Part shown: piece after piece, positions 2-8,997 of the stretch
How positions within the stretch are numbered: the stretch's first letter is position 1
Layout: the number at the start of each line of letters is the position of its first letter
Assembly: GCF_023169885.1 (NCBI RefSeq)
Contig: NZ_AP025516.1
Span: 3,513,501-3,577,500 of the forward strand
DNA length: 64,000 bases
Direction: 5' to 3'
Source: Desulfofustis limnaeus
GTDB taxonomy: Bacteria > Desulfobacterota > Desulfobulbia > Desulfobulbales > Desulfocapsaceae
Program-made: the position numbers and the translations under genes
Notes under the pieces: model-generated
What the model was told of the DNA's origin: nothing
Database searches by the model: none
What the model saw: only the letters and a program-made list of their open reading frames with translations

Positions 2-3000
2 AGCTTCACCGTACTGATCACCGCCCTCACTCAATACTGGCTCAACGCCGTGCTCGAGCCCGAAATCGAGTCCCGCTGCCACCGTCTGTTCGAGCAGGCC
101 CAAAAAAACAACTACCTGCTCTTCAGTTTGAGCCTTGGCGATCTGCTGGCCCGGGTGTCAACCCCGAAAGAAAAATTCCAGGAGGTCCTCGCCGAACGAC
201 GCACCGATGCTACCATCCATTCGCTGGTCGACATCATTGAGCCGGAAGAGGCGTGGAAGCGCAGCCTGCAAGCCCTGATCTCCATCTCCGCCCATGCACG
301 TGCGGACACCGCCGATGGGGATACCCGGTTGATCTGGCTGCTGGAATACCGCCAGGGCACGATCGATCTGCAGCCACGGGAACAGAAACGCACTGCCGAC
401 GGTCAGTGGAGCAAGGGCCGCCCCATCTCCCTGGACCGGCTGTACGGGCCGGCAAAAGCGCCTTACCTGTCGCTGCATGACCGCAAGATCTGCCTGGCCA
501 TTAGGAAAGAGGAATCCGGCGAAGGACAAGCCCGATACTACTTCGATCAGGAGAAACTGCTCGCGGCCCTGGTCGGACACCCCTTGCTGCACCACGCCGA
601 CTCGCCGTCCACCCCGGTGGAGTGCGTCAGCGGCGAACCCGAGCTGTTCATCGAGGAGCAGGGTGAACACCTGCGCATCACCTTCTCGCTGCCGGCCGCC
701 AGCGGGGACATCATGGTGGTGCCGGAAACGGCAAATCGCTTCAAGATCATCCGGATCAACGACAACCATCGCCGCATCGCCCAGATCACCGGTAAAGACG
801 GATTGGTGGTCCCGGTCGAGGCGAGCGAACAGGTCCTCACCGCCATCGGCAATATCTCCTCGTTCATGACGGTGCACTCCGCCATCGCTGCCGATGCCAG
901 CGCTCGCCAGGCCCAGGACATTTCGTTTGTCGAGGCCGACCCGAGCATCTATATGCATATCCTCCCGTTCGGCAGCGGCTTCCGGCTGGAGATGTTTGTC
1001 AAACCGTTCCGGGAAGGCAGCAGCTACCTGAAACCCGGCCAGGGAGTGGAAAACATCATGGCCGAGGTCGGCGGCCGCCGCCTGCAGACCCGCAGGAACC
1101 TCGCCGAAGAAGAGCGACGGGCCCGGGAAATCGAAGAGCTGTGCCCGATTCTCGACCTGGCCATCGACCTGGAGCACGGCAACGATCGCGAATGGCACCT
1201 GCACGGACCCGACGACTGCCTGCAGGCGTTGCTTGAGCTGCAAGACATCAGTGACCTGGTGATCATCGAATGGCCCGAGGGGGAAAAATTCACGATCAGC
1301 CATCGGGCCTCGTTTCGCAACCTCAACCTGAAGATCAGAACCAACCGGCAGAACTGGTTCGGGTTGAGTGGAGAACTGCAGCTCGATCAAAACACGGTCA
1401 TCGATCTCAGAGAACTCCTGACCCGCATGCGGGAATCACCCAGCCGGTTTGTCAGGGTAAGCAACGGCCAGTTCATTGCCCTGACCGAAGAATTCAGAAA
1501 ACGGCTTGATGAGCTGAACACCTACACCAGCGAGCCCACCGATGGGACTGACGGTGACATCCTGGTCCACCCGCTGGCCGCTCTGCCCTTGGAAAAGCTC
1601 GCCCAGCAGGCAACGACCAAGGCCGACGCGGCCTGGCGAACCCAGCTGGAAACCATCCGGGAGATTCAGACCTACACGCCGGAACTGCCCTCCACCCTGC
1701 AGGCTGATCTACGGGATTACCAGCTCGAAGGCTACCACTGGCTCGGCCGTTTGGCCCGCTGGGGCGTTGGCGGCTGCCTGGCCGACGACATGGGACTCGG
1801 CAAGACGCTGCAGTCCCTGGCCATCATCCTGCAGCGGGCCAGCAACGGGCCGTCACTGGTGGTTGCCCCCACGTCCGTCTCCACCAACTGGCTGAGCGAG
1901 GTGGGCCGCTTTACCCCGACCCTCAACATCAAGCAGCTGGCGGGAAAAGACCGGGAAGAGGTGATCAGCAGCCTGGGAAAATTCGATCTCCTGATCACCA
2001 CCTATACTCTGCTCCAACAAGAGATTGACGCCCTGGCCCGGATCACCTGGCAGACCATCGTCCTCGACGAGGCCCAGGCCATTAAAAATGCCGCCACCAA
2101 GCGCTCCCAGGCAGCCATGGCCTTGCGCGGCGGGTTCAAATTGATCACCACCGGGACCCCCATCGAGAACCACCTGGGTGAATTGTGGAACCTCTTTCAA
2201 TTCATCAATCCCGGTCTGCTCGGCTCGCACAAGCAGTTCAACGAGCGGTTTGCCATCCCCATTGAACGATTCAACAATCGTGAGGCCCGGCTACGCCTGA
2301 AAAAGCTGATTCGCCCCTTCATCCTGCGCCGCATCAAATCGGAGGTACTCGAAGAACTACCGCCGCGCACCGAGGTAACCCTCGAAGTGACCATGAGCCA
2401 GGAGGAACTACATTTCTACGAGGCGTTGCGGCAAAACGCGCTGGAGTTACTGGAAAACGCTGGGGACAATCAAGGCCGACACCTGCAGATCCTGACCGAG
2501 ATCATGAAGCTGCGCCAGGCCTGCTGCAACTCCCGTCTGATCTCCAGGGACGCCGATCTGCCGAGTGCCAAGCTCGAGGTGTTCGCCGCCCTGGTCGAGG
2601 AACTGATCGGCAGCCGCCACAAGGCCCTGGTCTTCAGCCAGTTCATTGGCCATCTCGATATCATCCGTGAATACCTCGACGCTAAAGGCATTATCTACCA
2701 GTATCTGGACGGCAGCACCAACAGCAAGCTGCGCCGCGAGCGGGTAGAGGCCTTCCAATCCGGCCATGGCGATCTGTTCCTGATCAGCCTCAAGGCCGGC
2801 GGCCTCGGCCTGAACCTGACCGCGGCCGATTACGTCATCCACATGGACCCCTGGTGGAATCCGGCCATCGAGGACCAGGCCTCGGACCGGGCCCACCGCA
2901 TCGGCCAGACCAGGCCGGTCACCATCTACCGGCTGGTGTGCAAGAACACCATCGAGGAAAAAATCGTCAAACTGCACCAGGAAAAGCGGGATCTGGCCGA

Positions 3001-3076
3001 TAGCCTGCTGGAAGGAACCGACATGAGCGCCCGGCTCAGTTCGGAAGAATTGATCAAGCTGATCCGCGACCACTAA
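2..3076 (+). CDS. SNF2-family DNA-dependent ATPase, 5' end cut by window
   Basis: Swi2/Snf2-type helicase-like ATPase. Known members translocate on duplex DNA and remodel protein-DNA complexes without unwinding; the partner here is unknown. The frame is open from base 2, so the GTG at 50 is probably internal and the N-terminus lies outside the window. Visible motifs are Walker A DDMGLGKT (about 1785-1807), DEAQ box (about 2063-2077), the TGTPIENHLGELW motif, and a C-terminal helicase lobe ending in DPWWNPAIEDQASDRAHRIG. The roughly 550 residues before the ATPase resemble the long N-terminal extension of bacterial SNF2 proteins that often carry a SWIM zinc finger, but any SWIM motif would be outside the window. 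It is co-directional with nothing downstream; the next gene faces it across 15 bp. Family is certain, role is not. Confidence 0.93.
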   Translation, partial: SFTVLITALTQYWLNAVLEPEIESRCHRLFEQAQKNNYLLFSLSLGDLLARVSTPKEKFQEVLAERRTDATIHSLVDIIEPEEAWKRSLQALISISAHARADTADGDTRLIWLLEYRQGTIDLQPREQKRTADGQWSKGRPISLDRLYGPAKAPYLSLHDRKICLAIRKEESGEGQARYYFDQEKLLAALVGHPLLHHADSPSTPVECVSGEPELFIEEQGEHLRITFSLPAASGDIMVVPETANRFKIIRINDNHRRIAQITGKDGLVVPVEASEQVLTAIGNISSFMTVHSAIAADASARQAQDISFVEADPSIYMHILPFGSGFRLEMFVKPFREGSSYLKPGQGVENIMAEVGGRRLQTRRNLAEEERRAREIEELCPILDLAIDLEHGNDREWHLHGPDDCLQALLELQDISDLVIIEWPEGEKFTISHRASFRNLNLKIRTNRQNWFGLSGELQLDQNTVIDLRELLTRMRESPSRFVRVSNGQFIALTEEFRKRLDELNTYTSEPTDGTDGDILVHPLAALPLEKLAQQATTKADAAWRTQLETIREIQTYTPELPSTLQADLRDYQLEGYHWLGRLARWGVGGCLADDMGLGKTLQSLAIILQRASNGPSLVVAPTSVSTNWLSEVGRFTPTLNIKQLAGKDREEVISSLGKFDLLITTYTLLQQEIDALARITWQTIVLDEAQAIKNAATKRSQAAMALRGGFKLITTGTPIENHLGELWNLFQFINPGLLGSHKQFNERFAIPIERFNNREARLRLKKLIRPFILRRIKSEVLEELPPRTEVTLEVTMSQEELHFYEALRQNALELLENAGDNQGRHLQILTEIMKLRQACCNSRLISRDADLPSAKLEVFAALVEELIGSRHKALVFSQFIGHLDIIREYLDAKGIIYQYLDGSTNSKLRRERVEAFQSGHGDLFLISLKAGGLGLNLTAADYVIHMDPWWNPAIEDQASDRAHRIGQTRPVTIYRLVCKNTIEEKIVKLHQEKRDLADSLLEGTDMSARLSSEELIKLIRDH

Positions 3077-3091
3077 GGCCCGACTCGTCGT

Positions 3092-3517
3092 TCATTCATC
3101 GCGCAGGCGATTGATGATCAGGCCCCAGAAGCCGTCATCCCCAGCCGAAAAATACCAGCCCAGATGCTCGGCACAGGCGGAGCAGAAGGCTACCCGCCAG
3201 AGGTACCCGGCAAACCAGGAGAACTCCCGGCTGGCCGGCCCACCGGCCTGGCAGCCGCGGGCCTCACGAAAACAGCCGATCTCATAGACGATGCCGGCCG
3301 GGTTGAAGACGGTGTGCAGGTGACGGCCGGCCCGGCCGATCCGGTGCCGGGGAGAGGTGATCGGCGCGCCGCAACGGCCGCACCGGATGGCCCGCTCGCT
3401 CCCCCGGTGATCTTGCTCCCGAGAAGCTGCCTCGTCTTTCACGCCAGGATCGCGCGACTTGGCCGCATCGCGCAACCGCATCACAGCCAGGTTCTTCGTC
3501 TGCAGCGGGTTTTCCAT
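3092..3517 (-). CDS. Bacterial cereblon-like CULT-domain protein
   Basis: A 141-residue protein whose C-terminal 100 residues match the CULT domain, the zinc-bound beta-fold that forms the thalidomide-binding pocket of human cereblon and occurs alone in some bacteria. Zinc ligands are CGRC (Cys46, Cys49) and CSAC (Cys112, Cys115). The three cage tryptophans sit in SWFAGYLWRVAFC and LGWYF (Trp101, Trp107, Trp121), and the family-typical FWGL follows near residue 130. The N-terminal 40 residues are charged and probably disordered. It starts 27 bp after the cobA-hemD stop on the same strand, so co-transcription is likely. No cellular ligand or function is established for bacterial members, so only the fold and pocket are claimed. 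Confidence 0.88.
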   Translation of the reverse strand: MENPLQTKNLAVMRLRDAAKSRDPGVKDEAASREQDHRGSERAIRCGRCGAPITSPRHRIGRAGRHLHTVFNPAGIVYEIGCFREARGCQAGGPASREFSWFAGYLWRVAFCSACAEHLGWYFSAGDDGFWGLIINRLRDE

Positions 3518-3544
3518 CAGCGCACAGCCTCCCGCCCCCTGCGC

Positions 3545-5098
3545 TCAATCGCTCCGCAGGCCTTCGATAATTGCCCGAATCATCTCGGGAATGGTGTAGA
3601 TCTCCGGCTGGATGTCGACCTTGAGGCCGGCATCGGTCACGGTCTTGGCCGTTATCGGCCCGATGGCGGCGATCTTCACCCCGCTCAACAACCGCTCAAG
3701 CTCCTGCTGATTCTCCGCCGCCACCATGGCCAGGAAGTTCTTGACCGTGGACGAACTGGTGAAAGTCACCAGGTCGACCTTGCCGCGTTCCAATTCGGCC
3801 CGCAGCTCTTCCTTTCGCCCCTGCGGCGGAACATTGCGGTAGATCGGCGCCACCGTCACCTGAGCGCCCGCTCCACGCAGGGTCTCAGGCAGGATCTCCC
3901 GGCCGGTCTGGGCCCGGGGCAGCAGGATATTGCGGCCTTCGACGCCGAGATCGAGGAGGCTCTGGGCCAGGCCTTCACCGGTGAACACCGGCGGGATCAG
4001 GTCGGCATTGATGCCGTATTCCAGCAACAGTTCGGCGGTACTCCTGCCCACCGTGGCAATATCGGGGCCCTTCAGGTCCCGGGCATCCATGCCTTTGGCG
4101 TACAACCGCTTGAAGAAGTGACGAACGGCGTTGATCGACGTGAACAGGATCCAGTGATACTCGTTGATCCGCTCCAACGCCTCGTCGAGTATCCGGTAAT
4201 CGTCGACCGGCTCGATATTGATGGTGGAACACTCGAAACAGCTGGCACCGGCCTCCTCCAACCCGGCGACCAGTTCGCTGGCCTGCTCCCTGGTGCGGGT
4301 GACGATGATGCGCCTGCCGAACAGCGGCCGCTTCTCGAACCAGTCGATGGATTCCCGCAGCTTCACCACCTCGCCGATGACGATCAACGCCGGCGGCTTG
4401 ATACCTGATTCACGGACATCGTCGACAATGGTGGCCAGCGTGCCCACCACCGATTGCTGCTCCGGTGTCGAGGCCCAGCGCACCACGGCCACCGGGGTAT
4501 CCGCGGAACGGCCGTGGTCGATGAGATTTCTGACAATATGGGGAAGGTTCTTGATCCCCATATACACGACAATGGTGCCGATGCCGGTGGCAATCTTCGA
4601 CCAGTCGATGTTCGAAGTCGATTTATTGGGATCTTCGTGGCCGGTGATAAAGGCCACCGAGGCGGTATAACCGCGGTGGGTGATGGGGATACCGGCGTAG
4701 GTGGCGGCCGCCGTGGCCGAGGTGACGCCCGGCACCACCTCGAAGGCAATCCCGTGTGCGGCGAGCACTTCCAACTCCTCACCGCCCCGGCCGAAGATGA
4801 AAGGATCGCCGCCTTTGAGCCGCACCACGGTCTTGCCCCGGCCGGCGAACTCGACCAGCATGGCGTTGATCTCGTCCTGCGTATGGGAATGCTCCACCCC
4901 GCCGCGCTTGCCCACGTACACCATCTCCGCACTCGGTGACACGTAGCGCAGCAGACGGCGGTTGGCCAGGTAGTCGTAGACCACCACTTCGGCGCGCTCG
5001 AGCAGGTATTTGCCGCGCAGCGTGATGAGGCCGGGATCGCCCGGTCCGGCGCCCACCAGATAGACCTTGCCCGCCCCCGTTTTCGTTTGTTGTTCCAT
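3545..5098 (-). CDS. cobA-hemD: Uroporphyrinogen-III C-methyltransferase / uroporphyrinogen-III synthase fusion
   Basis: Bifunctional tetrapyrrole enzyme. The C-terminal HemD half closes hydroxymethylbilane to uroporphyrinogen III; the N-terminal SUMT half methylates it with SAM to precorrin-2, feeding siroheme, cobalamin or heme d1. SUMT motifs are VGAGPGDPGLITLRG near residue 15 and VRLKGGDPFIFGRGGEE near residue 95. The HemD part begins around residue 260 with RRIIVTRTREQASELV and ends with the typical YTIPEMIRAI. I chose the ATG at 5098; an upstream TTG at 5104 is possible. About 517 residues is normal for the fusion, which is frequent in sulfate reducers and clostridia. The CULT gene follows closely. 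Confidence 0.95.
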   Translation of the reverse strand: MEQQTKTGAGKVYLVGAGPGDPGLITLRGKYLLERAEVVVYDYLANRRLLRYVSPSAEMVYVGKRGGVEHSHTQDEINAMLVEFAGRGKTVVRLKGGDPFIFGRGGEELEVLAAHGIAFEVVPGVTSATAAATYAGIPITHRGYTASVAFITGHEDPNKSTSNIDWSKIATGIGTIVVYMGIKNLPHIVRNLIDHGRSADTPVAVVRWASTPEQQSVVGTLATIVDDVRESGIKPPALIVIGEVVKLRESIDWFEKRPLFGRRIIVTRTREQASELVAGLEEAGASCFECSTINIEPVDDYRILDEALERINEYHWILFTSINAVRHFFKRLYAKGMDARDLKGPDIATVGRSTAELLLEYGINADLIPPVFTGEGLAQSLLDLGVEGRNILLPRAQTGREILPETLRGAGAQVTVAPIYRNVPPQGRKEELRAELERGKVDLVTFTSSSTVKNFLAMVAAENQQELERLLSGVKIAAIGPITAKTVTDAGLKVDIQPEIYTIPEMIRAIIEGLRSD

Positions 5099-5392
5099 AA
5101 GCAAAAAAAGGCCGGCCGTTCAACGAACGGCGCTGGCCACGCTCCTTTCTTCTCCGTCTTTTTTCATTTCGGCCGTTCGCAACGTTTCAAGGCGTCCCCG
5201 AAACAGCCGGTACGCCGGCTGGTGACTCGGGTCACCGCGTGCAACGCCCTGGCAGACCATGTGTACCAGTTTTTCAAGGTTTCAGCAAGCGGCCCGGCAG
5301 GCGCTCAGCCGCCGCCAGCACCGGCCGCCACGGCCGCGCCGGTGCGCCCATCAACGACGCACCCCACCATCTTCACCAACCCCAAACGCAAC

Positions 5393-5422
5393 AACGGGGA
5401 GATCGTAACGATGCTCCCCGTT
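5393..5422 (-). terminator. Inverted repeat downstream of adk
   Basis: Perfect 9-bp stem (AACGGGGAG / CTCCCCGTT) with a 12-base loop, about 40 bp beyond the adk stop. No long T-tract follows on the minus strand, so it may be a weak or Rho-assisted terminator. It also reads toward the plus strand with TTTCTTC after the stem. Confidence 0.5.
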
Positions 5423-5463
5423 TCTTCATCCGCTCTGCGAAGGCGCTGACGCCTCGTCTGCGC

Positions 5464-6144
5464 TTACAGCTGGGCGAGAATGGACTCGGTCACTTCCTTG
5501 ATGGACTTGGATCCGTCCACGGAAATCACCTTCGGTCCGCCCGGCTGCTTGAAATAGTTGACCGCGGCCATGGTGCCGGTGGTGGTGTCGTAATAGATGT
5601 TGTGCCGCTTGTCGATGGCGGCCACGTCCTGATCGTCGGCGCGGGTCTTGAGGTCGCCGCCGCAGACGCGACAGACCAGCTTGCCGTCTTTCTCCACCGG
5701 CTTGATGGCGTCGAAGGCGATATGGTTCGGATGATTGTTGTCGTTGACGCAGAGACGGCGGCCCATGATGCGCTCTTTGGCGATCTCGCGGTCGAGGACG
5801 ATCTCGATCACGTAGTCGAGCTTGATGCCAGCGTCTTTCAGGGTCTTGTCGAGGATGATCGCCTGCTCTTTGGAGCGGGGGAAGCCGTCCAGCAGCCAGC
5901 CGTTCTTGCAGTCGTCCTTCTGCAGCCGCTCGAGGATCATCGGAACGGTGATGTCATCGGGCACCAGGTCGCCGCGATCGATATAGGCCTTGGCCTTCAT
6001 GCCCAGCTCCGTGCCACCGCCGATATGCTCACGGAAAATGGCGCCGGACTCGATGTGCGGGATATGATACTTGTCCTTGACGATCGCACCCTGGGTTCCC
6101 TTGCCGCTGCCGTTCGGACCAAATGCCAAAATGTTCATGCCCAT
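5464..6144 (-). CDS. adk: Adenylate kinase
   Basis: Catalyses ATP + AMP to 2 ADP in the cytosol. The P-loop is GPNGSGKGTQ near residue 8 (usually GPPGAGKGTQ), and the family motif GWLLDGFPRSKEQA is near residue 85. The LID region carries cysteines (RRLCVNDNN ... VCRVCGGDL), suggesting the metal-binding LID variant. At 226 residues it is in the long-type range. The start has a good Shine-Dalgarno (AAGGAG, 7-base spacing); a second Met two codons on is less well placed. It diverges from hom across 290 bp. The divergent P-loop and cysteine LID resemble adenylate kinases annotated in Desulfobulbales (from memory). Confidence 0.95.
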   Translation of the reverse strand: MGMNILAFGPNGSGKGTQGAIVKDKYHIPHIESGAIFREHIGGGTELGMKAKAYIDRGDLVPDDITVPMILERLQKDDCKNGWLLDGFPRSKEQAIILDKTLKDAGIKLDYVIEIVLDREIAKERIMGRRLCVNDNNHPNHIAFDAIKPVEKDGKLVCRVCGGDLKTRADDQDVAAIDKRHNIYYDTTTGTMAAVNYFKQPGGPKVISVDGSKSIKEVTESILAQL

Positions 6145-6435
6145 GCCTTCTCTCCTTTCTCTGGTAAAAACGATATGCTGTTATCCGGACCCCGGCAAAC
6201 CGATCCGTCCCCGGTGCCCGGAGCGGTTCCCAAAAAAAAGCTCCGGGCCGCGCCTCACACCGCGCAGCGAGGTGTGATTATAGCCGAAATGGCCGGCATG
6301 AGCCAGAAAAATATCCGCCGATTACTTTGACTTTCACCCTGAAAATGGGTACTTTTCCCGGATCATCCGCAGCGCGGGAGGGGAGCTGCGCTTCCCGCCG
6401 CACCGCCCAGGAACAATCAAGCAACGAGATCACCC

Positions 6436-7746
6436 ATGAAAGATGCAATTCGCGTAGGACTCATCGGTTTCGGCACCGTCGGCAGCGGCCTGGCCAAGAC
6501 GCTTCTGGACCAGCAGGACGTACTCTCCCGCAAAGTGGGACTGCCGATCACCCTCAGCCGGGTGGCCGACATCCGGATCACCGAGCTGCCGCCCGAATAC
6601 CGCGCCACGACCCTGACCAACGATGCGAACGACATCTTCACCGACCCGGCCATCGATATCGTCGTCGAACTGATCGGCGGCATCGAACCGGCCCGGACCT
6701 TCATGCTCAAGGCCATCGAGGCCGGCAAGCACGTGATCACCGCCAACAAGGCGCTGCTCTCCATCCACGGCAAGGAGATCTTCGAGGCCGCCGCCGCCCG
6801 CGGCGTCGAGGTCGGCTTCGAGGCCAGTGTCGGCGGCGGCATCCCGGTGATCAAGGCCCTCAAGGAAGGGCTGGTGGCCAACCGCATCCAGAGCATCCGC
6901 GGCATCATGAACGGCACGGCCAACTATATCCTCAGCGCCATGACCGAGCACGGCACCCCGTTCGCGGAGGTCCTGGCCGAAGCGCAGCGCCACGGCTACG
7001 CCGAGGCCGACCCGACCTACGACATCGAAGGCATCGACACCGCCCACAAGCTGGCCATCCTGATGTCCATCGCCTACGGCAAGCACGTGCAACTCGACCA
7101 CATCTCGGTGGAGGGGATCAGCACCATCAAGCCGATCGACATCGATCACGCCCGTGAGTTCGGCTACCGCATCAAACTGCTGGCCATCAGCCGCAACCAC
7201 GGCGATCACGTGGAGGCCCGGGTGCACCCGACCATGGTGCCGCAGGACCACATGCTGGCCAACATCAACTCCACCTTCAACGCCATCCAGTTCACCGGCG
7301 ACATCGTCGGCGACGTCCTGCTCTACGGGCACGGCGCCGGCATGATGCCCACCGGCAGCGCCGTGGCCGCCGACGTGGTGGATATCGGCCGCAACATCAT
7401 CGCCGGCTCGATCAACCGCGTCCCGGCCCTGTCCTACCTGCCGCAGCACTTCGGCCAGCCGACGATCACCCCGATGGGCGAGCTGACCTGCCCGTTCTAC
7501 TTCCGGGTCACCGTCCTCGACCAGCCGGGCACCTTGTCGGCCATCTCCGGTATCCTCGGCAAGCACAACATCTCCATCAAGTCGGTGATCCAGAAGGGGC
7601 AACGCCCCGGCGAACCGGTGCACGTGGTGCTGCAGCTGCACGAGGCCCGTGAGGCGGACGTGACCAGCGCCGTGGCGGAGATCGACGCCCTGCCCGCCTG
7701 CACCGAGCCGACGGTGAAGATCCGCGTGCTCATAGAAGAGAACTGA
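6436..7746 (+). CDS. hom: Homoserine dehydrogenase with ACT domain
   Basis: Reduces aspartate semialdehyde to homoserine with NAD(P)H, the branch step to threonine and methionine. It has an N-terminal Rossmann motif GFGTVGSG (residues 11-18), the catalytic-domain signature EADPTYDIEGIDTAHKLAIL in the middle, and a C-terminal ACT domain beginning FYFRVTVLDQPGTLSAIS, which in relatives binds threonine for feedback inhibition. At 436 residues it is the standard monofunctional length, with no fused aspartokinase. It is followed after 24 bp by the homoserine-kinase-like gene, so the pair forms a threonine-pathway operon. Confidence 0.96.
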   Translation: MKDAIRVGLIGFGTVGSGLAKTLLDQQDVLSRKVGLPITLSRVADIRITELPPEYRATTLTNDANDIFTDPAIDIVVELIGGIEPARTFMLKAIEAGKHVITANKALLSIHGKEIFEAAAARGVEVGFEASVGGGIPVIKALKEGLVANRIQSIRGIMNGTANYILSAMTEHGTPFAEVLAEAQRHGYAEADPTYDIEGIDTAHKLAILMSIAYGKHVQLDHISVEGISTIKPIDIDHAREFGYRIKLLAISRNHGDHVEARVHPTMVPQDHMLANINSTFNAIQFTGDIVGDVLLYGHGAGMMPTGSAVAADVVDIGRNIIAGSINRVPALSYLPQHFGQPTITPMGELTCPFYFRVTVLDQPGTLSAISGILGKHNISIKSVIQKGQRPGEPVHVVLQLHEAREADVTSAVAEIDALPACTEPTVKIRVLIEEN

Positions 7747-7770
7747 TCGACCGGGACCCGGAACGCAACC

Positions 7771-8997
7771 ATGAAATACCTGATCCTCGTCGGCGACGGC
7801 ATGGGCGACCGGCCGATCGCCGAACTGGGCGGCCGCACCCCCTTGCAGGCCGCCGCCACCCCAGCCATGGACGCGCTGAGCCGCCGCGGCACGCCGCTGC
7901 GCGTGGCCACTGTCCCCGACGGCTTTCACCCGGGCAGCGACGTGGCCAACATGTCGCTGCTCGGCTACGACCCGGCCCGCTATTACACAGGCCGCGCCCC
8001 GCTGGAAGCGGCAAGCATGGGCATCACCCTGGCCGAGGACGAGATCGCCTTCCGCTGCAACCTGGTGACCACCACAGCCGGACCGGACCACACGCGCGCC
8101 ATGGTCGACTTTTCCGCCGGCCACATCAGCAACGACGAGGCGGCGCAGCTTATCGAGGCGCTGCAGCAGGCCTGCGGCAACGAGCACTTCCGTTTCCACG
8201 CCGGCATCAGCTACCGCCACCTGCTGGTGGTCAAGGAAGCCATCGCCCTGCCCACCACCGTGCCGCCCCACGACTACATCGGCAAGGATGTCAGCGACGC
8301 CTGGCAGGCCTACCTGGCCATCCCCGCCTGGGACCAGCTGGTACGTACCGCAGAAACGATCCTCGCCGACCACCCGGTCAACCGCCGCCGCAAAGCAGAC
8401 GGCAAGCACCGCGCCACCGCCATCTGGCCGTGGGGCATGGGCAAGACGCCGACCATGCCGACGCTGCGGGAACGATTCAACATCACCGGCACGATGATCT
8501 CGGCGGTGGACCTGCTCAACGGCCTCGGCGTCTGCGCCGGCCTCACCATCACCAGAGTCCCCGGCGCCACCGGCTACATCGACACCAACTACGAGGGCAA
8601 GGCCCAGGCCGCACTCACTGCACTCGAACAACAGGATTTCGTCTTCGTCCACCTGGAAGCGCCGGACGAGGCCGGCCACCAGGGCCGTCTCGACCACAAG
8701 CTCCAGGCCATCGAGGACTTCGACGCCAAAATCGTCGCGCCCATCGTCGCCACGCTGCGCCAGCGCGGCGAGCCGTTCCGGGTCATCGTCACCATGGACC
8801 ACTTCACGCCGCTGGCCATCCAGACCCACACCGCCGACCCGGTCCCGGCAATCCTCTACGACTCCCGCGAGACCGAACCGGGCTCGAACCGCCCCTTCGA
8901 CGAGCAGCTGAGCGCAGCTACCGGCAACCCCGGTGACCCTCTGCCGCTGCTCCCCGGCCACCAGATGATCGAACTCCTGCTGACCAAGCACCCATGA
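7771..8997 (+). CDS. ApgM-family phosphotransferase, proposed homoserine kinase
   Basis: Alkaline-phosphatase-superfamily protein of the archaeal cofactor-independent phosphoglycerate mutase type. N-terminal YLILVGDGMGDRP supplies a metal-binding Asp (Asp9), DVANMSLLGYDP (about 57-68) contains the nucleophile Ser62, and later metal motifs are HLEAPDEAGHQG and TMDHFTPL. At 408 residues it is normal for the family. A subgroup of this family next to hom has been proposed to replace ThrB as homoserine kinase; adjacency to hom and the lack of a thrB-like gene here fit that, but glycolytic mutase activity cannot be excluded from sequence alone. It overlaps the next gene by 4 bp (ATGA). Confidence 0.85.
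   Translation: MKYLILVGDGMGDRPIAELGGRTPLQAAATPAMDALSRRGTPLRVATVPDGFHPGSDVANMSLLGYDPARYYTGRAPLEAASMGITLAEDEIAFRCNLVTTTAGPDHTRAMVDFSAGHISNDEAAQLIEALQQACGNEHFRFHAGISYRHLLVVKEAIALPTTVPPHDYIGKDVSDAWQAYLAIPAWDQLVRTAETILADHPVNRRRKADGKHRATAIWPWGMGKTPTMPTLRERFNITGTMISAVDLLNGLGVCAGLTITRVPGATGYIDTNYEGKAQAALTALEQQDFVFVHLEAPDEAGHQGRLDHKLQAIEDFDAKIVAPIVATLRQRGEPFRVIVTMDHFTPLAIQTHTADPVPAILYDSRETEPGSNRPFDEQLSAATGNPGDPLPLLPGHQMIELLLTKHP

Follow-up and report, generated by a model that had tools for sequence, protein, structure and literature searches.

Free-standing bacterial cereblon-type proteins behind cobA-hemD and a recurrent motif in their N-terminal tails

What does a bacterium use a free-standing cereblon-type domain for, and does the company that its gene keeps say anything about its function? 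In the portions considered here of the 2015 papers on bacterial CULT (cereblon thalidomide-binding) proteins, both the natural ligand and the purpose of these proteins are left open (PMC4287342, PMC4449219). The question is raised by a 64,000-nucleotide stretch of the 4.23 Mb, single-contig genome of Desulfofustis limnaeus (NZ_AP025516.1, positions 3,513,501 to 3,577,500; hereafter the window), in which a 141-amino acid open reading frame with an ATG start (3092..3517, minus strand) directly follows a cobA-hemD fusion gene. A first-pass annotation of this DNA described the product as a free-standing CULT protein and took its apparent co-transcription with a tetrapyrrole enzyme as a clue to metabolism or to degraded proteins containing cyclic imides. 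The reading that we favour, at a probability of roughly 45%, is that such a protein would be a reader of imide or lactam rings with a tethered docking motif, encoded in a likely cobA-hemD-CULT unit.

Identification of the protein is the firmest part of this account. A phmmer search placed MsCI4 of Magnetospirillum as the closest solved relative (4v32; E 3.6e-24 over residues 43-139) and also returned eukaryotic cereblon chains (E 3e-12 to 1e-9); as sequence matches, both lie far beyond chance. All three cage tryptophans (W101, W107 and W121) and both zinc-binding CxxC pairs (C46/C49 and C112/C115), which the first-pass annotation had reported, are indeed present and are invariant in 112 of 112 aligned bacterial relatives, as are H68, N72, P73, G75, F102, H118 and G120. 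These relatives were gathered by a pattern that demanded the zinc cysteines and fixed the third cage position as aromatic only, so the invariance of the cysteines is partly by construction. An AlphaFold2 model made from this alignment averages 93-98 per 10-residue block from residue 41 onward (83 for the last block, a single residue) and has a beta-tent-like strand order, and the top Protein Data Bank rows returned for it by Foldseek are MsCI4 entries, at ~40-42% identity and a root-mean-square deviation of 1.0-2.0 Å. Alignment and predicted structure thus identify a beta-tent-type domain with both zinc pairs and the three cage tryptophans.

No family was called for the protein by Pfam-A or NCBIfam at E 1e-3, and its score of 15.9 bits against Yippee-Mis18 (PF03226) falls under the curated cut-off of 26.6. 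Because no model in these two collections catches it at that threshold, the protein may well escape routine annotation and perhaps be named hypothetical. Pfam-A at the same threshold also matched no LON domain in its 141 residues, in keeping with a free-standing CULT protein, a kind of protein that is already known. MsCI4 itself (MGR_0879, cereblon isoform 4 of Magnetospirillum gryphiswaldense; 4v2y, 4v31, 4v32) likewise consists of a single CULT domain with the cage tryptophans and two CxxC pairs, at ~41% identity in structural alignment, but its chain has ~24 residues before the first zinc cysteine where the window protein has 45. In the part of the 2015 account considered, the thalidomide-binding domain of human cereblon (CRBN) has a cage and a zinc site of the same kind (PMC4287342); a connection to DDB1 and ubiquitin, in contrast, is not implied for the bacterium, whose protein lacks a detectable LON domain. 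The same portion describes CULT group I as stand-alone prokaryotic CULT proteins, mainly of delta-proteobacteria (Lupas et al. 2015, PMC4287342). What differs here is that many of the proteins have a motif-bearing tail and that in two families the gene closes a tetrapyrrole operon. Operons are not mentioned in PMC4287342, according to a term search, and among the open-licence papers listed and the passages considered we found no report of either the CULT/cobA-hemD operon linkage or the tail motif.

The cobA-hemD gene of the window (uroporphyrinogen-III methyltransferase and synthase; 3545..5104, minus strand; Pfam TP_methylase 1.1e-55, HEM4 1e-69; TIGR01469) lies directly upstream of CULT on the same strand. 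The 27-nucleotide gap from its stop to the CULT start (3518..3544, minus strand) holds a good predicted ribosome site, GGGAGG, whose end lies 10 nucleotides ahead of the ATG. The operon-like placement claimed in the first-pass annotation stands, and CULT is likely the second gene of a cobA-hemD-CULT unit.

A survey of operon conservation, the check proposed with the original claim, found this linkage kept in relatives, the opposite of the refuting outcome named there. By gene coordinates, cobA-hemD is directly upstream of CULT on the same strand at no fewer than 30 of the 32 CULT places in the window's family (f1, which includes Desulfofustis and Desulfopila) and at least 35 of the 41 in a second family (f12). 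We assigned the family names ourselves: f1 is probably Desulfocapsaceae, and f12 probably Desulfobulbaceae because Desulfobulbus rhabdoformis (L031) shares the f12 arrangement and groups with f12; in one record labelled Desulfobulbaceae (L023), CULT is not linked to cobA-hemD. The counts are lower bounds, as genomes without a listed cobA-hemD were scored as not linked though loci L003/L040, L059 and L177 (genomes G011, G015 and G103) show the linkage. Across the remaining families of the order, at least 1 of 28 CULT places has cobA-hemD beside it, and that case is in a contaminated genome. This genome (G162; 7% contamination) has three CULT matches, one of them next to a cobA-hemD whose score is like those of f1, and the whole is probably a mixed bin. 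A scan of contigs found cobA-hemD or its end beside CULT in 8 of 34 loci, the other 26 being not linked. Gene fusion was considered as proof of the linkage and set aside: in draft genome G132 (L097, minus strand, ~6022-7968) CobA, HemD and CULT share one frame, but the HemD match ends at residue 489 of 519 and gives way to a stretch that is not HemD-like, so that a frame slip or draft-assembly error, not a true fusion, is the probable explanation.

The surroundings of cobA-hemD suggest how the linkage arose. In f12, hemC (Pfam Porphobil_deam, 4.4e-86) usually lies upstream of cobA-hemD (20 of 22 loci, L025 and L031 counted in), and it is also near cobA-hemD in 16 of the 19 real loci that have no adjoining CULT; near the cobA-hemD of f1 it was found in 0 of 20 loci. 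An SIS-domain gene, the gene of a 317-331-amino acid protein, hemC and cobA-hemD look like an old operon, whose tail CULT would have joined in the f1/f12 lineage, with f1 losing hemC and keeping CULT. The linkage would then be an old, lineage-specific placement at the operon tail; a CULT-domain tree, built on too few columns, neither shows nor excludes one origin of the linked copies. The 317-331-amino acid protein, encoded between the SIS-domain gene and hemC or cobA-hemD (L025:4545-5498, L135:5117-6112 and equivalents), had no Pfam match at E 1e-3 in the two members scanned, to which those of other loci of the order are 63-88% identical.

At many linked loci the possible CULT starts reach into hemD. 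Half of the 62 loci (31) have every ATG, GTG or TTG that stands 30 residues or more ahead of the first zinc cysteine inside hemD, and 16 of the 62 have all possible CULT starts there, whatever their distance from that cysteine. The distance from the hemD stop to the first zinc cysteine is a multiple of three plus one at all 31 overlapping loci, which thus have a frame relation in common; at the other 31 linked loci the relation is mixed (10, 13 and 8).

How much function can be read from this linkage? CULT may simply have been added to the end of a hem operon that already existed and then been kept there by synteny in the two related families, functionally unconnected with CobA-HemD; to this account we give even odds. 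It fits the rarity of the linkage elsewhere in the order and in the contig scan. It also fits the conservation of a longer thioesterase-apgM-hom-adk-cobA-hemD block: most f12 loci keep thioesterase, apgM, hom and adk beside the cobA-hemD/CULT pair, which makes the adjacency in part a matter of simple synteny. Genomes of both families, moreover, have cobA-hemD without an adjoining CULT and with the usual next gene following, as though CULT had been lost (snf2 directly next in L136 and L137; a 238-amino acid gene next in f12 loci L200-L202, L205 and L206). Passive carriage sits less well with the starts nested in hemD, and with f1 having kept CULT beside cobA-hemD although hemC is gone and the downstream genes differ between the two families. 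The linkage is conserved in two families and makes co-expression with CULT likely there, without naming a ligand; the suggested step from linkage to metabolism is weak, since few CULT genes elsewhere in the order share the placement, other neighbours take its place, and the pair lies inside a wider syntenic block.

Elsewhere, CULT keeps varied company. The 46 loci set aside as not linked showed no cobA-hemD, hemC, SIS-domain gene or adk, some of their contigs stopping a few hundred bases upstream of CULT; as these loci were preselected, the missing cobA-hemD is no independent count, and the new information is the absence of hemC, SIS and adk as well. Outside the families with the linkage, the neighbours include RmuC, a CLC channel, an acetyl-CoA transferase, EF-G, SecG, glucokinase and a Mg-chelatase-domain protein (presumably YifB-like), among others, in a profile scan that covered part of the neighbours and a clustering that left out L112, L114 and L091, whose CULT the pattern missed. 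Recurrent neighbours were considered as a functional clue and rejected: they recur mostly among related groups, and those that are more widespread, response regulators (7 of 43 loci) and histidine kinases (at least 5), are two-component proteins from superfamilies of great size.

The boldest reading of the linkage is that CULT senses imides or lactams derived from tetrapyrroles (maleimide-type and hematinic-acid products, or pyrrolinone ends) and thereby reports or buffers damage at the siroheme/heme branch. Tetrapyrroles break down to cyclic imides, and the gene comes last, after hemC-cobA-hemD in f12 and after cobA-hemD in f1. MsCI4 also accepts small rings, valerolactam included, to judge from the title of structure 5ohb. 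We nevertheless rate such a ligand low, as the remaining families lack the cobA-hemD linkage and, among the literature matches listed, only the work on UROD as a substrate joins cereblon with uroporphyrinogen, siroheme or hematinic acid. Similarly improbable, in our estimate, is a uracil or uridine ligand that would make CULT a sensor of pyrimidines or of DNA damage. MsCI4 binds uracil and uridine as well as thalidomide in the part of the 2015 report considered (PMC4287342), and there is a deoxyuridine structure (4v31); no pyrimidine-pathway gene, however, recurs among the named neighbours within the part scanned. A Cytidylate_kin2 gene lies beside CULT in one closely related group (L008, L014, L016 and L018).

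A second handle on function lies in the N-terminal tail. In the window protein, residues 1-42 (3392..3517, minus strand) are predicted to be disordered, and residues 10-17 (LAVMRLRD) occupy the place where relatives carry a motif of three hydrophobic residues followed by Arg or Lys, often LLR, LFR or YCR, in a tail that is otherwise freely variable. From 123 distinct proteins we dropped 7 with fewer than 40 residues of upstream open frame and thinned the remaining 116 to 85. The motif is present in 46 of these 85 non-redundant proteins, where shuffles within each tail give 9.5 ± 2.8 (maximum 18 in 1000), and 41 of the 50 matches within the last 60 residues sit 25-34 residues before the first zinc cysteine. 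Control patterns built on the hydrophobic triplet (HHH) stayed at or near the level of their shuffles, whose means were 9-12: [RK]HHH 10, HHH[DE] 11, HHH[ST] 15 (shuffle 9.9) and HHH[GP] 12.

A relaxed form of the motif is enriched in unlinked loci (16 of 39, against 2.5 by shuffle) and in f1 loci with a gap after hemD (14 of 20, against 1.3), as it is in hemD-overlapping loci (10 of 18 against 1.6 in f12, where the true start codon of the tails is uncertain; 6 of 8 against 0.7 in g14). Because the unlinked and the gapped f1 loci show the enrichment separately, the motif is no by-product of the overlap with hemD. On the sequence evidence, then, about half of these proteins have in their tail a hydrophobic-Arg/Lys motif whose distance from the domain is nearly fixed, in linked and unlinked loci alike.

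What might such a motif do? Two AlphaFold2 models, of the window protein and of a relative with a strong motif (L017), leave the tail at block-mean confidence (pLDDT) values of 50-68, without secondary structure and not folded onto the domain; the idea that the tail forms a strand of the CULT domain is unsupported by them. The main structural rival to a docking role is an intramolecular latch, in which the motif would fold over the cage when ligand binds. In the portion of the literature considered, the N-terminal extension of human cereblon runs along the thalidomide site (PMC4449219), and a latch would be in keeping with the near-constant spacing between motif and domain. The same two models speak against it, weakly, as they hold no ligand, and we consider a latch unlikely, though less so than either of the alternative ligands above.

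The tethered reader that we favour combines the cage with the tail. By family resemblance the cage would hold a cyclic imide or lactam ring; the most plausible ligand would be, as for human cereblon, the cyclic imide at the C-terminus of proteins that have been damaged or modified; and the tail motif, more speculatively, would dock a partner such as a protease, so that CULT would act as a tethered reader or adaptor. SspB-type ClpXP scaffold adaptors resemble this arrangement in idea only, as a binding domain, a flexible linker and a short docking motif. The docking motif of SspB is C-terminal, whereas the candidate motif of CULT is on the N-terminal side and agrees with half of the LKxh consensus. 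For the cage, the precedent is human cereblon, which reads C-terminal cyclic imides made by PCMT1 and counts UROD, a heme-pathway enzyme, among its clients in the part of the study considered (PMC11974815); by this analogy, the cyclic-imide idea of the first-pass annotation agrees with published work.

Several observations count against the tethered reader. The motif was noticed before it was tested and so is defined post hoc; plain hydrophobic triplets are themselves moderately more frequent in the tails than in shuffles (62 of 85, against 43.9 ± 3.9); and the tail of the window protein itself does not match the strict motif, only the relaxed form. Nor is the motif universal, since the MsCI4 chain, with its first zinc cysteine at about residue 25, is too short to hold it. 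As a candidate ClpX-binding (XBR) motif it was rejected: the docking consensus of the ClpX zinc domain is LKxh in the portion of the source considered (PMC7226468), and the hydrophobic-Arg half fits, but the position two residues beyond the Arg holds A, V, I, L, M or C in 13 of 43 cases, against 23% in the linker. Co-occurrence tests have no power, because the protein families concerned are near-universal: of the 212 genomes of the order, 202 have PIMT (PF01135) and all 212 have the LON substrate domain, LON-N (PF02190). Nine of the 10 genomes lacking PIMT also lack CULT, but four of these belong to one genus.

We also considered CobA-HemD as a C-terminal cyclic-imide client and rejected it. 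A C-terminal Asn or Gln is rare in CobA-HemD and shows no enrichment with CULT (5 of 61 with CULT downstream, 1 of 24 without), so the enzyme is not an obvious client. The widest version of the idea is a long shot: bacterial CULT as a ubiquitin-free cereblon pathway, in which the cage would take proteins with C-terminal cyclic imides and the tail motif would bring them to an AAA+ protease or repair partner. In f1 and f12 the reader would be co-expressed with siroheme branch-point enzymes, so that tetrapyrrole enzymes may be its clients, as UROD is for human cereblon.

CULT was found in 53 of the 97 near relatives and in 99 of the 212 genomes of the order, as well as in 111 of 232 in a class sample and 21 of 237 in a phylum sample; these sets overlap and include the window's own genome, and the near-relative count takes in one decayed copy and the order count two. 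CULT-like remnants in G070 (C1:2230349-2230537) and G102 (C6:53121-53438), with one and two in-frame stop codons respectively, are probably decaying copies. The contig scan placed further CULT loci in gammaproteobacterial, Magnetococcales and Myxococcales records. A mobile origin was considered and dropped: CULT was not found in the phages or plasmids searched, and a scan of viral contigs with a single peptide pattern found none.

Around the pair in the window, a weak terminator-like hairpin with a T run (5115..5131, minus strand) lies between adk and cobA-hemD. It is the one such site in 2900-6500, with none in the gap 3518-3544, a result that says little because shuffles of the region give 2.7 on average. 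On the other side, an SNF2-family helicase gene identified by Pfam (50..3076, plus strand; its frame starts before the window) converges on CULT and ends 15 nucleotides from its stop. The convergent SNF2 gene adjoins CULT in most f1 loci; in L122 (G015) and L124 (G013), ~4.9 kb and 8.7 kb lie between them. Just outside the window, upstream of the helicase frame, a minus-strand open reading frame of 148 amino acids (L118:11765-12211; G000:C1:3511764-3512210) resembles an IS200/IS605-type transposase.

The kind of protein is known; what these analyses add are two new handles on CULT function: the gene linkage that two families share, and a motif in the tail that lends itself to deletion or to use as bait. 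Should CULT prove to be a tethered reader, the reading of imides by cereblon would predate its coupling to ubiquitin.
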